Assembly (NCBI RefSeq): GCF_014651635.1
Contig: NZ_BMXG01000023.1
Coordinates: forward strand, 1 to 50,751
Direction of reading: 5' to 3'
DNA: 50,751 nucleotides
DNA from: Cerasicoccus arenae
Lineage (GTDB): Bacteria > Verrucomicrobiota > Verrucomicrobiia > Opitutales > Cerasicoccaceae
The translations under genes and the position numbers were made by a program. This document shows, in pieces, positions 33,218 through 42,648 of this stretch (the first letter of the stretch is position 1; every line of letters begins with the position of its first letter). Under the pieces are notes generated by a model that was given only the letters and a program-made list of their open reading frames with translations, did not search any database and was not told the origin of the DNA.

Positions 33218-33239
33218 GTGAGCTGTTTTGAATTTTCAG

Positions 33240-33272
33240 CGGATTGACTCGGTGAGGGTCAATCCGTTTTTT
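33240..33272 (+). terminator. rho-independent terminator after rpoZ
   Basis: CGGATTGAC (33240-33248) pairs with GTCAATCCG (33258-33266) around a nine-base loop and is followed by TTTTTTAT. It ends 23 bases after the rpoZ stop and a few bases before the smpB start, so it may either end the rpoZ transcript or attenuate read-through into smpB. Confidence 0.82.
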
Positions 33273-33278
33273 ATATCC

Positions 33279-33752
33279 ATGGCCAAGAAAAAGAAAGATG
33301 ACCATATCCGGGAGTTGCGCAACGGCAAGGCGTTCCACAACTACTTCGTGGGCGATAAGTTCGAGGCCGGGATCAAGCTGACTGGCCCGGAGGTCAAGTC
33401 GATCCGCGCTGGAAAGGGCCAGATCACGGAGTCTTTTGTGCGGATTGACAGCGATGGTGTGCCCACGCTCTACCATGCTTACATCGACGAGTTTGTCTTC
33501 GACAACACAGGCACCCACAACCCGACGCGGGCACGGAAACTCCTTTTGCATAAAAAGGAAATCTCGCGTATCAAGCAGGAGATGGAAGCGGGTGGCCAAG
33601 CGCTGATCCCGCTGCGTCTTTATTTTAAACAGGCCTTGATCAAGGTCGAGATCGCGCTCTGCAAGGGCAAGCAACTCCACGACAAGCGCCAGTCTCTTAA
33701 GAAAAAGGAACAGCTTCGTGAGGCTGACCGTGCGGTGTCTTTTCGGCGTTAG
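33279..33752 (+). CDS. smpB: SsrA-binding protein SmpB
   Basis: SmpB brings tmRNA to stalled ribosomes for trans-translation. The 157-residue product shows the family pattern AFHNYFVGDKFEAGIKLTG (partial), EVKSIRAGKG, the NPTRARKLLLHKKEI stretch and the basic C-terminal tail KGKQLHDKRQSLKKKE. The ATG at 33279 is used; the frame opens earlier from a TTG but runs through the terminator. No tmRNA gene was found in the window. Confidence 0.95.
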   Translation: MAKKKKDDHIRELRNGKAFHNYFVGDKFEAGIKLTGPEVKSIRAGKGQITESFVRIDSDGVPTLYHAYIDEFVFDNTGTHNPTRARKLLLHKKEISRIKQEMEAGGQALIPLRLYFKQALIKVEIALCKGKQLHDKRQSLKKKEQLREADRAVSFRR

Positions 33753-33767
33753 TTGATTTTCTGAGCC

Positions 33768-34235
33768 ATGCTCCACGTCGTCCTGCACCAGCCAGAGATT
33801 CCACAGAATACCGGTAATATCGGGCGGATGTGCGCGATTACACAAAGCCGACTGCACCTGATTCATCCCTTGGGATTCGTCATCTCTGACCGCCAGCTCA
33901 AGCGTAGCGGTATGGACTATTGGAGGGAGCTCGACGTTGAGCATCACGCAGACTGGAATGCATATCAGACATCTGCCGCGCCGTCGCGTTGCTGGTTGCT
34001 CACGACGAAGGCCGAGCGCACGATTTGGGATGTTGAATTCGCAGCAGAAGATGCCCTTGTTTTCGGCAATGAAGGCCATGGTGCACCGGAATCCTTACAT
34101 CAGGAACTGGAGGCAACGCGGATAATGATTCCGCAATTTGCGACTGATCTGCGCTCGCTGAATCTCTCCACAGCAGCGGGAATTGTTGTTTATGAAGCCT
34201 TGCGTCAGATCCGTAGTCGTAATGAACCGGGGTAA
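33768..34235 (+). CDS. trmL: tRNA (cytidine/uridine-34)-2'-O-methyltransferase
   Basis: TrmL methylates the wobble ribose of some tRNA-Leu. This 155-residue SPOUT enzyme shows PEIPQNTGNIGRMC near residue 9, then LVFGNEGHGAPES near residue 96, and RSLNLSTAAGIVVYEALRQ at 128-146: the trefoil-knot SAM-binding elements in the family order. It follows smpB after 15 bases, the usual loose operon distance. A hairpin at 34259-34276 (TGACGCA/TGCGTCA) with only a short T tract lies downstream. Confidence 0.93.
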   Translation: MLHVVLHQPEIPQNTGNIGRMCAITQSRLHLIHPLGFVISDRQLKRSGMDYWRELDVEHHADWNAYQTSAAPSRCWLLTTKAERTIWDVEFAAEDALVFGNEGHGAPESLHQELEATRIMIPQFATDLRSLNLSTAAGIVVYEALRQIRSRNEPG

Positions 34236-36368: not shown

Positions 36369-37370
36369 ATGAACTTTGCGATACTTGGAGCCGGAGCCTG
36401 GGGCACGGCAATGGCGATACAACTTCATCGTGCTGGCAATCGGGTGACGCTGGCACCGCGTCGGATGGAACACGCACTCGCACTTGCCTCAGAGCGGGAA
36501 AATCGCGATTACCTGCCAGGGTATGCATTGCCGTCAGATATCCAGATCGGCTGTGAAATTGCCCCGGTGCTGATGGAGGCCGATTACGTCATTTTGGCCT
36601 GTCCGTCGACTGGTCTACGTGAACTCTGCGAAAAGGTTCGTGATGCATTACTCGGTGCAGAGCAGCTCAAGATGGCCATCGCCTTGTGCAAAGGCTATGA
36701 GCGCGAGACCCTCCGTGCCCCCGCAGAAATCGTCCAAGACCTTTTGCCTGAGTTGACTGCCGCCGTGCTTTCGGGGCCAACATTTGCGGGGGAAGTCGCA
36801 GCGGGCAAACCAACCGCGATTGTGCTCGCGGCTGAGGGTGACGCTGATCAACTCCTCGAAGCACAGCATGCCATTAGCAGCGAAAGTTTGCGCGTTTATC
36901 GGAGCAACGACCTGCATGGTGTGGAGCTCGGTGGTAGCTTGAAAAATGTCTATGCAATCGGAGCCGGTCTTTGTGATGGCTTGAAACTTGGTGACAACGC
37001 CAAGGCTGCCTATTTAACCCGTGCGCTTGCTGAAATGGTGCGCCTCGGGGCAGCGCTCGGCGGCAAGCCAGAAACCTTTTACGGCCTGAGCGGCTTCGGC
37101 GACCTGATTGCTACCTGTAATGGTGAATGGAGCCGTAATCGCACTTTTGGCGAAGCCTTGGCAAAGGGGCAGGGGATCGATGAACTACTCTCTGGCCGGA
37201 AGACCGTGGTGGAAGGCTACTGGGCTGCGCAATGTGTACAGGATATGGCCAAGAAAGTTGGTGTCGATGCGCCGATTTTGGGTGAAATTCACCGTGTTTG
37301 CTACTCGAAAGGGCATCCCACAGAGGTCGTGAGCAACCTGATGGGCCGTCAGCTCAAGGCCGAACATTGA
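36369..37370 (+). CDS. gpsA: glycerol-3-phosphate dehydrogenase [NAD(P)+]
   Basis: GpsA reduces dihydroxyacetone phosphate to sn-glycerol 3-phosphate for phospholipid synthesis. The 333-residue product has the dinucleotide-binding loop GAGAWGTAMAI at residues 7-17, SGPTFAGEVAAGKPTA near 135, the catalytic lysine region GGSLKNVYAIGAGLCDGL near 194, and the SGFGDLIATC segment. It is complete and stands alone, divergent from the monooxygenase. Confidence 0.97.
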   Translation: MNFAILGAGAWGTAMAIQLHRAGNRVTLAPRRMEHALALASERENRDYLPGYALPSDIQIGCEIAPVLMEADYVILACPSTGLRELCEKVRDALLGAEQLKMAIALCKGYERETLRAPAEIVQDLLPELTAAVLSGPTFAGEVAAGKPTAIVLAAEGDADQLLEAQHAISSESLRVYRSNDLHGVELGGSLKNVYAIGAGLCDGLKLGDNAKAAYLTRALAEMVRLGAALGGKPETFYGLSGFGDLIATCNGEWSRNRTFGEALAKGQGIDELLSGRKTVVEGYWAAQCVQDMAKKVGVDAPILGEIHRVCYSKGHPTEVVSNLMGRQLKAEH

Positions 37371-37442
37371 TTTGTTTGCGAACCGTGGCTACATTGAGAT
37401 GCGTTAGTGCATTCTTTCAGTAGGATGAAGGGAGGGTTCCAG

Positions 37443-38012
37443 CTAGATGCTGATTACGCCATTGAGCAAACGCGGGCTGTCGGCAGTGGGAAAATCGCCA
37501 TCGTTCCAGGTGAGGGACGAGAAATGGTTGGCGTTGGTCTCAAGCCAATCGAGTATGACGACTTCCTCATCATGGCCGCCCGCGTGGCCGCGATAGATGA
37601 GCAATGAGAGCAACCCACCCGGCTTCAGAAGCTGAAGGCAGGCGTCTAGCGCACTGCGAGTTGTAGCTGCTGTCGTGATGATTTGTTTGTCCGAGCCAGG
37701 TAGGTAGCCAAGATTGAAAACAATCGCTTGGACGTGCCCTTGCCAGTCTTGGGGGGCCAGTGAAAGCAGGTTTGCATGGTCGCCTTCGGTCAAGATGACA
37801 CGGTCGAGTAGGCTGGCGATGGTCAAGCGTTGCTGTGTGGTGGACAATGCAGTTGCCTGCCGGTCAATGGCGAGCACGCGGCCCGCTGACCCGACTAGTC
37901 GCGCGAGTAGCAGCGTGTCGTGACCGTTGCCCGCCGTGGCGTCTATCGCGTAGTCTCCTGCCTGAATCGTATCACTGAGTTGGGTGTGAGCGACTTGCGT
38001 TAAACGGGCCAT
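37443..38012 (-). CDS. mnmM: MnmM/YtqB-like tRNA wobble-uridine methyltransferase
   Basis: The 189-residue SAM enzyme shows DYAIDATAGNGHDTLLLA (motif I) at about residues 20-37, the FNLGYLPGSDK stretch near residue 100 that is typical of the PF06962 family (YtqB), and the KPGGLLSLLIYRGHAGG segment. B. subtilis YtqB (MnmM) methylates nm5s2U34 of tRNA to mnm5s2U34; this is an established function for the family. It lies 25 bases downstream of an FAD oxidoreductase on the same strand, which could supply the nm5 substrate (see findings). Confidence 0.85.
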   Translation of the reverse strand: MARLTQVAHTQLSDTIQAGDYAIDATAGNGHDTLLLARLVGSAGRVLAIDRQATALSTTQQRLTIASLLDRVILTEGDHANLLSLAPQDWQGHVQAIVFNLGYLPGSDKQIITTAATTRSALDACLQLLKPGGLLSLLIYRGHAGGHDEEVVILDWLETNANHFSSLTWNDGDFPTADSPRLLNGVISI

Positions 38013-38037
38013 GGCAAATTGAAATCAAAAGGGGGGG

Positions 38038-39096
38038 CTACTTTTTGCGGCGAGGAGGATTAAGGCCGAAGTTGCAGTCAGGGGGGAGGGGGGTATCGCT
38101 GGTCAGGTGGTCCGCAAAGCGTTGAGCCAGCCAGGGGATGAAGACATTGCCCTTGGAGCCGAAGCCGTTGAAGACGCCAATGCGAGGATGATCAGGGTGC
38201 CAGCCTGCACGCGGTATGTGGTCGCCGGCTGCACAACGAATGCCTGCACGATGACCGGTGACGCTCAGCTCGTGCGTGGGTAACGTCGCTTCGACCTGAT
38301 GAAGTATTTCGTCGCGTCCGGTGGGCGTGGTTTCGAGATCGGTTTTGCCGCGGCCATAGGTCGAACCACACCAGGCACTTCCGTCGGGCTGAGGAATGAT
38401 CCACTTGCCGCGATTTACAGGATGCGTGGGAAAGGGTTGGTCTGACTTGAGGGTGAGAATCTCGCCTTTGTTGGGCTGGAAATTAAATTCTCGAAAGAAG
38501 GGATTCTCCAAGATGCGCCAGCCCTCGGCGAAGATGATCCGCTCGGCCGTTTGATCGCGCCAACGGACTTCATTTTCGGTGACAACGAATTCGGCGTGAT
38601 CGAACTCTGCATCGCAAAGTATGTCGTGTTCGCGGAAGTATGTCTGGAGGTAATCGAGCAGTGGATTTGTTTCGACGTAGCCACTGTGGTTGATGAACAA
38701 GCCTCCGTGATCATCGTTGAGCGGCGCATTTTCGCTGGGTGCCATGAACTCACCAAGGTAAGGCGTAAAGCGTTCGTCGGCTTGTCGCTTTTCAAGGTAG
38801 TCGTGTTCCTTCTCACTGGCAACCAAGCGCAGGATGGGTGCGGGACGAAAAAACACACGTCCGAACTGCTCCGCCATCTCGTCAAAAAACTGTCGTGCGA
38901 CTGGCAAGCAGTCCTCGATCCGCCAAGCTAGAGTGAGGCGCTGCCCCTGGACGGGATTAACCATGCCAGCGGCGACTCGCGAAGAACTCGTGCGATGACC
39001 GTCATCTATGATGCGCACGGTGTGCCCACGTTGGTGAAGTTCCCACGCCAACACGCTGCCAGCCATACCTTGACCGACAATGATTGTATTAGTCAT
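38038..39096 (-). CDS. FAD-dependent oxidoreductase, DadA/MnmC-oxidase-like
   Basis: The 352-residue protein has an N-terminal FAD-binding loop IIVGQGMAGSVLAWEL (residues 5-20), followed by SSRVAAGMVNPVQGQRL near residue 41-57, and a C-terminal GFGSKGNVFIPWLA segment. The layout matches amine/glycine oxidases of the DAO family, including the oxidase half of MnmC. ATG 39094-39096 gives MTNTIIVGQG, and the longer frame adds eight residues. It is the upstream gene of a two-gene set with the MnmM-like methyltransferase, 25 bases apart. Confidence 0.85.
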   Translation of the reverse strand: MTNTIIVGQGMAGSVLAWELHQRGHTVRIIDDGHRTSSSRVAAGMVNPVQGQRLTLAWRIEDCLPVARQFFDEMAEQFGRVFFRPAPILRLVASEKEHDYLEKRQADERFTPYLGEFMAPSENAPLNDDHGGLFINHSGYVETNPLLDYLQTYFREHDILCDAEFDHAEFVVTENEVRWRDQTAERIIFAEGWRILENPFFREFNFQPNKGEILTLKSDQPFPTHPVNRGKWIIPQPDGSAWCGSTYGRGKTDLETTPTGRDEILHQVEATLPTHELSVTGHRAGIRCAAGDHIPRAGWHPDHPRIGVFNGFGSKGNVFIPWLAQRFADHLTSDTPLPPDCNFGLNPPRRKK

Positions 39097-39183
39097 GAAA
39101 CGGATAATCCTTTGGCCCATCCAGTGCTCGCCGTAAAGCCGATTTGCTTCATCGGCTTCTGGCGAGCACGGAGATTCAGTGGC

Positions 39184-42100
39184 CTAGCGATAGAGATATG
39201 GCTCGGTGCCCAGTGTGCCACGTAGTTGATTGATACGACCAGGGCTACGATAAATAGCCAAGGTTTCACGGGCGTGCTCAAGGCTAGCATGGAGGTCGAG
39301 TTGCTGCGCACCTTGGTCTTCGCCGGCGTGCTTTTCAATCTCGGCCTTGAGATAGGCGTTGTGCCGTTCCCACAGGTTCACTTCCACTTGCTGACGGCAG
39401 GCTAGACGGGCTTGATACCAGTCGCTCTCCATCATGGCTTTGCGGGAGAAGAGATCGCGAATTTCTGGATCGGCGAGTGTTTTTCCCTCGTATTCGCCGT
39501 CGCGCATAATGTGAAGCAGGGCCTTCAGCGGCGGACAAGCGCCGTCGATGGAACCATCCTCAAAATACAGTGCGGACACGCGTTCGTGGGTGGCCAGAAT
39601 GTTATCCATGCCGTCTGCGTATAGATCAAGGCCTTGCAGTTCTGGCTTGAGCATTTCATCGGTTAGCACAGCGGCTGGGTTACCGAATACGCGGCCAAAG
39701 TAATGGCGAACAAAGCGAGCCGTGATGCGGTAGCCGAGGACACTTGAGCGTACCGTTTTGCCATTGAATTCCACATCGGGCACAGCTTCGAGCATACCAT
39801 CGGAAATGAGCGCTTCTGGGTCGCGTTCACGTGGCTTCATGCGGCTCCAAACCTCGGGCACGAGTAGCGAAATGTCGTGGTCCACACGGTTTTTCGGGCC
39901 GACGTAACCTGCCGCAGTGATGAAGGGCTGGTAGCCAGTCAGAACGAAGGACACGAGCGCGTTGTTGAGGTCAACAATTGGTGGCAGGGCATTGAATGGC
40001 CCCTTGGTGAGTGCGCCTTCGGAACCGGCTCCAGTCGTCGATGGGCTCTTGCCTGTCATCGACGAAATAATCTCCATGAAGAACTCTGGCAGTGGGAGAT
40101 AATGGATTGGGTTGAAAACCGCGAGTGAGCGAACACCATCTTGCGGTGGATTGTTGCGACGGCCTGGCAGCACGGCGTTGACCGGCATGGGCACGCCTTG
40201 CTCTTCACCGATTCGGCGGAATAAACGCACGCCAACTTCGCCCAAGTAGAAATTACGCGGGTCAACGAGGTCGTCGCGGTCTTGCAAGTAACGTGGGTTT
40301 TTGGTCGGCGCGCCATCGACGATGCGCGGGTTGGAATTGATGACCATGTACTGGCTACGCTCATCGGCGAGACAGGCCTTGATGGCCTCTTGCATCGGTT
40401 CGGTATATTGCTCGAAGCGGATGGCGTCTTCGGTCAGATCCGTGATGAACTCACGGCTGAGTGGTTCGTAGTTGGAGAAGAAATTGCCCGCTTTGGACAT
40501 ATCCAACTCCGTGCGCTTGTCGTAGCCGCGATGGATTGCATCATCCGGACGTTGGAAGAGGCGGAACTCGCAGTTTTCGATGAACTTGACCGAGGGGTTG
40601 CTGTAGCGCTGATTGAGATTTGGGATGACATCCGTTGGCATAACGACAGCTGCGGAAATATCGTCCTCAGTCTGAAGCTTCGCGGCGGGATTGAAATCCT
40701 TACGTAGGCCAAAGATGCGCCATGAGCCGTCTTCGTTGTAGCCGATGCGCAAATATTGGGTGACCAAGCGCATTTCCTTGTATTTAAGCCAGTTGCCAGA
40801 GGAACCGTTGACGCTGTCCACACTGAAACGGCTGCGCCAGTCGCCCTCCCAGTCTTCTTTGTAGAAGCGCTTGAGGATAAAGACGAATTCTTTGATGTAG
40901 AAGGGAATGTCCCGCAGCCACGCATTGTATTCGTCGGTGTATTCTGGAGCGGGTGTGAGTAGCTTGATTACGGAGCCCAGCGTGCGCTCGTTACTGAGGA
41001 CTTTACGACCGTTCGGGCGATTTTTCGAATCGTCTTTGAACCGCATGCCGTATTCCTTGGCAATGATTTCTCCCACGCGGGCAAAGTCTGCCTCGAAATC
41101 GGCGACAATGACCGGTGCGTAGATAATAGCGTCGGAAATGGACTTGGAGATTTCCGACTTGCCGCCGCCGGAGACCGTGCAGGGTTTGTGGCAGAAGGTG
41201 CCTTCGGCAGTCGTGCCAACGAGGCGCCAGCGTCGACCTTCGGTTGCGGGGCGGAGCATCTCAATCTTGTAACCCGATGGCATCACGTAAGTGATGTGGG
41301 GGCGGAGGCGCATGCATACGCGGCCATCGCTTTTGCCCCAGCACACGGTTTGCTCGGCCAGCGAAATTTCGGTATCCTCGGGCACGTAATGAATGTCCGG
41401 ATATTCCTTATCGATGGCGAAGCCCTCGGGTTGCCGGACAGCCCGGTCACCCAGCAATTGCATTGCCTGCTCGAAGGAATGGTCGAGCTCGGGGATGTAT
41501 TTGGCCAAGCGGAATTCTTCGCCCAAGTCGTAGCTTGGGAACGCGATGGCACCGCCAGCGTGTTCTTCTTCAGCCAAGCCATATAAATTGGCGGCAAAGC
41601 TGATCTGAGTCTTCACCTCCTTTTTGCAATAGCCAAAATAGTTGTCTGCAATGATGGTGACAATAACGCCGCTGGCGTCACGAGCGGTTAGCTTGAACGC
41701 TGAGCCGCCGTTGTAGAGTTCGTCATCTTTGCTCCAGCACATACCTTGGCGCTTTTGGAGCTCGGTGGCTTCATCGATATGAGGCAGGCCAAGTTCTTTC
41801 TTGGTTTTGGTTATCAGGTGCGGGGCGAGGATTACGCAGCCAGTATGGCCAGTCCAGTGGCGCACGTCGACGGCAGCGTCGTTTTCTGGAAGAAACGGAT
41901 CGCCTGCATTGCCGAAAATACTTTCCACAAAGTCGAGATTGCTGACGAGGTTACCGGGCGCAAAAAAGCGTACTTCGTAGCGTTTTTCCGAGATAATGCC
42001 CTCCACGCCGGGGCATACAACGGGACGCATGAGTAGGGATGCCCAGACTTCGGCGGGCTTAGGCAATTCTGAGGTGAAGGGAAGTTGCTTGAGCTCGGAG

Positions 42101-42648
42101 GGCGGGTTGAGCGCCTCGGTTAGCATACGGGCAAATGTGAGCTTCGGCACCGAAAGCTTGTCTGCTGGAATTGGCAAACCGCCTTCGGCGACGTGGAAGA
42201 CACCCTTGGTCGTGCGACGATCATTCTTCGGGTTGTGGAGCACGCCGTTGTGGACGCGGTAGCTCTTGATGATATCCGAGGAAAATTCGTCCTTGTCTGG
42301 TGGCATGCAGAGCACACGGGCGAGGCCATGGCGGTCCAGACAAAGCGTGCTGTGAGGCAGGCGAGGGCGGGGCTCCGTTTCGGGCAAATCAGCAAGATAT
42401 TTATCGATGAAATTCTGGGCGCGTTGGTCAACCGGGCTCAAGTGACCGGCCAAAAGGCGGGTCTGCTCCTGGTATTGCGCTAGCAGGCCTTTGGCCAAGC
42501 GCATGAAAGGGTAATTTGCCTCCTCTCCAACGATGGGCTGCTTGAGGCCCGCGAGTTTCAGATTGGCGTACTCAATCAGAAAGGGGTCGCGAGATACAGC
42601 GCGGCGTTCGTCGTTCGGCATTAGTCCAATAGCGGTTTCCAGATTCAT
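39184..42648 (-). CDS. very large protein, possible PPi-type phosphoenolpyruvate carboxykinase
   Basis: The 1154-residue protein has no signal peptide or membrane segments. Its size matches the PPi-dependent PEP carboxykinases of Propionibacterium and Entamoeba, which run about 1130-1160 residues, and it contains segments that I associate with that group: DNYFGYCKKEVKTQI at about 335-349 and a phosphate-loop-like CTVSGGGKSEISKS at 490-503. Later come PNLNQRYSNPSVKF and RVDHDISLLVPEVWSRM. PPi-PEPCK would convert PEP, CO2 and phosphate to oxaloacetate and pyrophosphate. The call is by memory of family features without alignment. It is divergent from a GbsR-type regulator. Confidence 0.55.
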   Translation of the reverse strand: MNLETAIGLMPNDERRAVSRDPFLIEYANLKLAGLKQPIVGEEANYPFMRLAKGLLAQYQEQTRLLAGHLSPVDQRAQNFIDKYLADLPETEPRPRLPHSTLCLDRHGLARVLCMPPDKDEFSSDIIKSYRVHNGVLHNPKNDRRTTKGVFHVAEGGLPIPADKLSVPKLTFARMLTEALNPPSELKQLPFTSELPKPAEVWASLLMRPVVCPGVEGIISEKRYEVRFFAPGNLVSNLDFVESIFGNAGDPFLPENDAAVDVRHWTGHTGCVILAPHLITKTKKELGLPHIDEATELQKRQGMCWSKDDELYNGGSAFKLTARDASGVIVTIIADNYFGYCKKEVKTQISFAANLYGLAEEEHAGGAIAFPSYDLGEEFRLAKYIPELDHSFEQAMQLLGDRAVRQPEGFAIDKEYPDIHYVPEDTEISLAEQTVCWGKSDGRVCMRLRPHITYVMPSGYKIEMLRPATEGRRWRLVGTTAEGTFCHKPCTVSGGGKSEISKSISDAIIYAPVIVADFEADFARVGEIIAKEYGMRFKDDSKNRPNGRKVLSNERTLGSVIKLLTPAPEYTDEYNAWLRDIPFYIKEFVFILKRFYKEDWEGDWRSRFSVDSVNGSSGNWLKYKEMRLVTQYLRIGYNEDGSWRIFGLRKDFNPAAKLQTEDDISAAVVMPTDVIPNLNQRYSNPSVKFIENCEFRLFQRPDDAIHRGYDKRTELDMSKAGNFFSNYEPLSREFITDLTEDAIRFEQYTEPMQEAIKACLADERSQYMVINSNPRIVDGAPTKNPRYLQDRDDLVDPRNFYLGEVGVRLFRRIGEEQGVPMPVNAVLPGRRNNPPQDGVRSLAVFNPIHYLPLPEFFMEIISSMTGKSPSTTGAGSEGALTKGPFNALPPIVDLNNALVSFVLTGYQPFITAAGYVGPKNRVDHDISLLVPEVWSRMKPRERDPEALISDGMLEAVPDVEFNGKTVRSSVLGYRITARFVRHYFGRVFGNPAAVLTDEMLKPELQGLDLYADGMDNILATHERVSALYFEDGSIDGACPPLKALLHIMRDGEYEGKTLADPEIRDLFSRKAMMESDWYQARLACRQQVEVNLWERHNAYLKAEIEKHAGEDQGAQQLDLHASLEHARETLAIYRSPGRINQLRGTLGTEPYLYR

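Follow-up and report, generated by a model that had tools for sequence, protein, structure and literature searches.

MnmC is a bifunctional enzyme found mainly in Gammaproteobacteria, in which the methylase domain (MnmC(m) or MnmC2) precedes the oxidase domain (MnmC(o) or MnmC1) according to the available parts of PMC3648344, and it performs the same two reactions that are proposed below for a pair of separate genes, with an oxidase of the same DAO/glycine-oxidase fold as is predicted for the pair. Single-domain orthologues of MnmC1 and MnmC2 are described in other bacteria, and one MnmC2 alone had been tested by 2013, as far as the accessible portions of these reports tell (PMC3648344, PMC3936742). 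Standalone MnmC(m)/MnmD methylases without a known oxidase have carriers that include Bacteroides, and for organisms with the unrelated methylase MnmM the same source, in its accessible sections, leaves the oxidase, an "MnmC(o)-like enzyme", unidentified and finds no operon of an oxidase with MnmM (PMC9976899).

The MnmL-MnmM system of Bacillus subtilis and Streptococcus relies on MnmM for the methylation step. The partner of MnmM there is the radical-SAM protein MnmL (YtqA, TIGR01212). In the work of Jaroch et al. 2024, MnmL is reportedly encoded beside MnmM and takes part in making nm5s2U, and it is said to be the radical-SAM answer for Gram-positive bacteria. The part of a review that was available lists MnmL in a table and credits Jaroch et al. 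2024.

The locus compared with these systems here lies in a stretch of 50,751 nucleotides of Cerasicoccus arenae DNA (the window) and consists of a gene for a DAO-type FAD oxidoreductase followed by a putative MnmM gene. Unlike MnmC, the pair is made up of two genes, in the order oxidase then methylase, with an unrelated methylase and an oxidase that misses the MnmC1 cut-off and falls in a clade of its own, here named FAM. Its methylase is that of the MnmL-MnmM system, but an FAD oxidase takes the place of MnmL, and a search of the same genome at 1e-20 found no TIGR01212 (MnmL-type) gene. Fold, FAD binding and a conserved arginine are common to FAM and the ThiO glycine oxidase, but FAM has no ThiG gene nearby, scores below the ThiO cut-off and carries other residues at two positions (Y247 and K315 of the window protein). 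Judged from sequence and genomic comparisons, the two genes very probably work as a small unit in the last steps of tRNA wobble-uridine modification, with FAM acting before MnmM. As a candidate, FAM could fill the place of the MnmC(o)-like enzyme left open in the available parts of the MnmM paper (PMC9976899), and the pair would be a new form of a known pathway; the searched portions of the literature hold no mention of a pairing of an FAD oxidase with MnmM, and an earlier description may exist elsewhere.

The gene pair and its methyltransferase

Both genes are located on the minus strand. The oxidoreductase (352 aa; Pfam DAO, 1.4e-32), the proposed cmnm5(s2)U34-tRNA oxidase, occupies 38038..39096, from an ATG at 39096 to a stop at 38038, and the methyltransferase (189 aa) occupies 37443..38012, from an ATG at 38012 to a stop at 37443. 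Transcription on this strand would run from the oxidase into the methyltransferase across a spacer of 25 bases between the oxidase stop and the MnmM start (38013..38037), and these exact coordinates agree with the original description of a one-strand pair, 25 bases apart, with the oxidase first. No promoter- or terminator-like site was found in 37350-39250, a result that carries little weight. Directly upstream of the oxidase, also on the minus strand, an ORF of 1154 aa (39184-42648) is annotated as a PPi-dependent PEP carboxykinase by a match of 1188 bits to 8e1u and has no Pfam or NCBIfam match at E <= 0.001, and downstream of the pair a glycerol-3-phosphate dehydrogenase gene (36369-37370), assigned by Pfam/NCBIfam search, lies on the opposite strand. 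About 3 kb from the pair, also on the other strand, 33768-34235 (+) encodes a TrmL-like wobble 2'-O-methyltransferase, with 164.2 bits at a cut-off of 190.6. The ORF before the TrmL-like gene (33228-33752) looks like smpB.

The methyltransferase matches Pfam rRNA_methylase PF06962 (1.4e-32) and scores 169.2 bits (168.5 in the genome search) against the NCBI MnmM equivalog NF053511, above the cut-off of 135, and the solved structures nearest to it include the YtqB/MnmM proteins 8h0s and 8h1a. According to the available parts of PMC9976899, the B. subtilis enzyme requires K11, D34, N101, Y104, K110, Y141 and H144. Six of these positions were compared, and all six are kept in the window protein, with D32, N100, Y103, K109, Y140 and H143 corresponding to B. 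subtilis D34, N101, Y104, K110, Y141 and H144. Across 45 aligned MnmM proteins linked to FAM, D34, N101 and Y104 are present in 45/45, K110 in 40/45, and Y141 and H144 in 43/45, with 2 gaps. On the curated cut-off and these essential residues the protein is filed as MnmM, a predicted tRNA nm5(s2)U34 methyltransferase, in line with its earlier description as MnmM/YtqB-type.

Co-occurrence, linkage and exchange of partners

Among 145 sampled genomes of Verrucomicrobiota, 20 carry MnmM (counted when over the cut-off), 26 carry FAM, 40 carry TIGR01212 and 45 carry PF05430, the MnmC(m) family. The suggested co-occurrence of MnmM-family and DAO-family genes in the phylum is borne out, FAM being present in 20/20 MnmM genomes and in 6/125 without MnmM (both genes 20, MnmM alone 0, FAM alone 6, neither 119; Fisher 1.3e-19, relatedness ignored); some of the FAM absences could be false because at most the 14 best candidates per genome were scored. 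The 20 MnmM genomes span 10 genera and ten of them belong to genus g21, within which FAM is found in 10/10 MnmM-positive genomes and is absent from 5/5 MnmM-negative ones, and in genus g6 two genomes carry both genes and one carries neither. Three of the six genomes with FAM and no MnmM (G015, G023, G093) have PF05430 in frames of 255-292 aa, two (G085, G088) have it solely in a frame of ~690-705 aa, which in G088 is a fusion with tRNA-guanine transglycosylase (TGT), and in the sixth (G091) neither PF05430 nor MnmM was found.

Six of the 20 MnmM genomes in the sample, that of C. arenae among them, have FAM and MnmM as same-strand neighbours, and the window oxidase is 29-40% identical to those of the other five adjacent pairs; in the remaining 14 the genes are not adjacent. 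FAM loci elsewhere were obtained by scanning one genome per species and taking the best 80 of 378 confirmed, a selection thereby biased to near relatives. In these best 80 of 378, MnmM is at most 300 bases away on the strand of FAM in 39 loci (38 downstream, 1 upstream), lies farther off in the same locus in 2 and is absent from the locus in 39, one of which is at a contig end; MnmM overlaps FAM in 35 of the 39 adjacent cases when starts are taken provisionally from the longest ORF. The linkage predicted for relatives is frequent without being universal, present in these 39 loci and 6 phylum genomes and missing from the other 14 MnmM genomes of the phylum. Carriers of FAM among the best 80 of 378 include Methylococcales, Mariprofundus, Nitrosomonas and Omnitrophota, so the pair, at first regarded as a split system of Verrucomicrobiota, occurs in that phylum without being specific to it. 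Among the matches listed, the top match to an alignment of six FAM proteins (window oxidase first) comes from Cerasicoccus maritimus (Verrucomicrobiota; 68% identity), where an MnmM 61% identical to that of the window follows FAM on the same strand. The distances of FAM and MnmM are correlated (Mantel r 0.84, 45 pairs, 0/2000 permutations as high), which is not used as proof because shared host ancestry can give the same result. A plasmid search with the window oxidase returned three distant matches only.

Both methylases were searched for in 50 genomes from the best 80 of 378 FAM loci, namely each of the 39 whose locus lacks MnmM and 11 of the 41 whose locus contains it, at a limit for MnmM of E <= 1e-15 (23 of 24 positives are over the cut-off). 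The 11 genomes with MnmM in the locus have MnmM in 11/11 and PF05430 in 0/11. For the 39 without it, MnmM is found elsewhere in the genome in 13 and PF05430 in 20, with both in none and neither in six, all of which are labelled as MAGs. Among the FAM loci that lack MnmM (best 80 of 378), L085 from Omnitrophota is the only one in which an MnmC(m)-like motif was seen; there an MnmC(m) gene directly precedes FAM and overlaps its start, where others have MnmM.

In Bacteroidota, the phylum of the Hymenobacter locus L094, FAM co-occurs with a PF05430 methylase instead of MnmM. Of 247 genomes, 83 carry FAM and PF05430, 42 FAM alone, 12 PF05430 alone and 110 neither, and at E <= 1e-36 the corresponding numbers are 71, 23, 24 and 129; the FAM search scored the best 8 candidates per genome, and some absences may be false. 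The two genes are generally not neighbours in this phylum. MnmM is present in one genome with FAM and without PF05430 (G159), and few of the 42 such genomes were searched for it. Because FAM goes with either of two unrelated methylases, MnmM or MnmC(m), both of which act on nm5(s2)U34, it is best explained as the enzyme that makes this substrate. The pattern points to a modular exchange, with a single enzyme family retained for oxidation and a choice between two unrelated families for methylation.

Affiliation and proposed reaction of the oxidoreductase

The resemblance to the oxidase half of MnmC that was originally noticed extends to the DAO fold and to features at Y247 and K315, and stops short of family membership. 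Against TIGR03197 (MnmC1) the window protein scores 103.3 bits (93.8 in the genome search), below the cut-off of 174.2 and compared with 520.6 for the E. coli MnmC control, and against TIGR02352 (ThiO) it scores 85.8 bits, below a cut-off of 250.8 that two annotated ThiO proteins exceed, with 337 and 272 bits. Filing the oxidase by profile score as either MnmC(o) or ThiO was rejected, as both cut-offs are missed, hence the separate name FAM. An AlphaFold2 model built from 51 sequences (mean pLDDT 96.3) predicts the glycine-oxidase/MnmC fold, to which CmiS2, ThiO and MnmC are all near (Z 36.5 to 34.0, with MnmC at 34.0-34.5), and these values are too close for fold comparison to serve as a family discriminator. 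Residues S304, G518, R567 and G619 of E. coli MnmC correspond to S39, G244, R287 and G316 of the window protein, but their equivalents are largely common to ThiO and DadA and do not single out MnmC(o). Y247 (E. coli Y521) is aromatic in most FAM sequences (Y in 24, F in 6 and W in 2, with two H) and in MnmC (Y in 4, F in 1) and in 0/6 ThiO sequences, and K315 (E. coli R618) is K or R in 34/34 FAM and 5/5 MnmC sequences and in 0/6 ThiO sequences, which have N or H there. On balance, the window oxidase probably works like MnmC(o), though it is not filed as a member of that family.

A six-protein FAM search at E <= 1e-20 was rejected as the sole criterion for membership, since ThiO structures score about 93 bits and the search is not specific by itself, and candidates were therefore placed in a tree. 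Beyond the founding six, 20 Verrucomicrobiota genomes are FAM-positive; an earlier tree covers 13 of them with 14 proteins, every one of which falls inside the FAM clade, and leaves out the other seven, all of genus g21 and with E values of 1e-61 to 1e-65. A second tree of 47 sequences includes four added ThiO and leaves out SolA and SoxB, whose long branches had joined, as well as VFAM_L131, L132, L139 and FAM_L106. In this tree the 34 FAM sequences form one clade (100/99) and the five MnmC, all of them fused, form another (99/97), and FAM and MnmC are set apart from six ThiO with two DadA by a branch at 100/98; in the earlier tree, with other outgroups, FAM joins MnmC at 81/79. FAM makes up a clade of its own with MnmC(o) and ThiO both in its vicinity, and sequence evidence on its place between them is divided, the trees leaning to MnmC and the profile scores to ThiO. 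Within the 47-sequence tree, the window FAM and its two nearest Verrucomicrobiota relatives group with sequences of Methylococcales, Mariprofundus and Nitrosomonas (98/94) and not with the FAM of other Verrucomicrobiota families, which suggests that the FAM gene or the gene pair was transferred between phyla.

The nearness to ThiO raises the alternative that FAM is a thiamine-pathway glycine oxidase, or another small amino-acid oxidase, and that its neighbourhood with MnmM is incidental. The ThiO model outscores the MnmC1 model in five of the six FAM proteins scanned (the window protein shows the reverse order), a profile built from the first six retrieves ThiO structures before MnmC (93 vs 67 bits), and in profile-profile comparison FAM likewise scores better with a ThiO than with the oxidase part of E. 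coli MnmC; glycine oxidase heads the Foldseek list for the predicted model, and an AU test of a FAM+ThiO constraint gives p 0.086, so that a grouping named at the outset as contrary to the pairing is not rejected. However, no thiazole-synthase gene was found in the surroundings of FAM: at 1e-5 the ThiG probe hits none of 108 FAM sequences, a set that includes the window as well as its own locus L030, and it hits both control loci. ThiE, ThiS, ThiF and ThiD likewise have no match in the 108 sequences, but the controls are also blank for these, so ThiG is the only proven probe; the search covered flanks of about 1.5 kb per FAM locus from the genome search, and two of the six ThiO comparators (L265, L266) are themselves encoded away from thiamine loci. 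The score far below the ThiO cut-off and the lysine at K315 in place of N or H also argue against a ThiO-like enzyme, and an incidental linkage would leave the 20/20 co-occurrence, the adjacency in 39 of the best 80 of 378 loci and the either-or relation of MnmM and MnmC(m) unexplained, which makes this reading highly improbable.

In the favoured reading, MnmE-MnmG would first make cmnm5(s2)U34, FAM would then oxidise the C-alpha-N bond of the carboxymethylaminomethyl group by the chemistry of MnmC(o), with hydrolysis of the imine leaving nm5(s2)U34, and MnmM would finally methylate this product with SAM to give mnm5(s2)U34. MnmG is present in the C. arenae genome (749 bits, cut-off 525), in which neither a PF05430 gene nor a further TIGR03197-like match longer than about 55 positions was found. 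The linkage, the co-occurrence, the replacement of MnmM by MnmC(m), the presence of MnmG and the lack of any other known last-step enzyme among those searched for in the genome all favour the pairing as a pathway, as had been proposed. We infer from sequence data which compounds FAM takes and releases, and that the two enzymes serve one pathway here; with nm5U as the common substrate of the two methylases, the most likely role of FAM is to convert cmnm5(s2)U to nm5(s2)U. FAM could instead act at another wobble-uridine step, for example on mnm5U or a side product, with MnmEG supplying nm5U from ammonium, a reaction given in the available parts of PMC9976899 and PMC3648344 by which an oxidase is not strictly needed, and genomic context fixes the pathway rather than the step. 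Yet the fold and the conserved arginine agree with those of enzymes whose oxidation target is a glycine unit, cmnm5 alone carries such a unit among the intermediates named in those parts of the two papers, and E. coli performs the cmnm5 step with an enzyme of this fold (PMC3648344, available parts), which leaves a role at another step with little chance.

The function proposed here, conversion of cmnm5(s2)U to nm5(s2)U, holds alike for FAM as a far MnmC(o) orthologue and as a separate recruitment, and what separates the two is novelty. That FAM is a divergent MnmC(o) orthologue split from MnmC(m), and no separate family, is in keeping with the DadA-outgroup tree, in which FAM and MnmC stand apart from ThiO and DadA, and with the common features at Y247 and K315/R618; the lower support with other outgroups and the separation of FAM and MnmC into two clades, the latter sampled by five fused sequences, count against it, and we give such orthology somewhat less than an even chance. 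The chances are balanced that FAM is a third, unnamed kind of cmnm5U34 oxidase beside MnmC(o) and the radical-SAM MnmL, which would make FAM the missing partner of MnmM in Verrucomicrobiota, Methylococcales, Mariprofundus, Nitrosomonas and Omnitrophota and of the orphan MnmC(m) in Bacteroidota, re-paired more than once. FAM in any case gives a concrete oxidase candidate for several other phyla.

Other last-step genes in Verrucomicrobiota

In many genomes of the phylum without MnmM, TIGR01212 together with PF05430 is the predicted alternative last-step set. PF05430 is also present in 36 of the 40 TIGR01212 genomes of the sample, mostly with the two in a single frame about 570-660 aa long. In L163, the only case examined directly, a TIGR01212 radical-SAM domain is fused to MnmC(m) in one frame of ~590 aa. 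The TIGR01212 model also matches in E. coli and is not a clean marker of MnmL, and such a gene is carried by two of the 20 MnmM genomes as well (G128 and G039). Three genomes (G093, G015 and G023; L147-L149) carry FAM and TIGR01212 genes alongside a PF05430 methylase in a short frame, and the two oxidation routes are possibly redundant in them.

Frames of ~680-730 aa with PF05430 were considered as fused MnmC and rejected; both proteins examined are TGT-methyltransferase fusions, and such frames do not enter the count of proven MnmC(m) partners. At L268 (1313-3151, -) and L269 (63-2003, +), in two genomes of the order, the fusion joins a tRNA-guanine transglycosylase with a PF05430 domain of divergent MnmC(m) type. 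The MnmM genome G102 has a TGT-PF05430 fusion, and the PF05430 frames of ~677-733 aa in G045, G075, G085, G098, G125 and G140 may be the same fusion.
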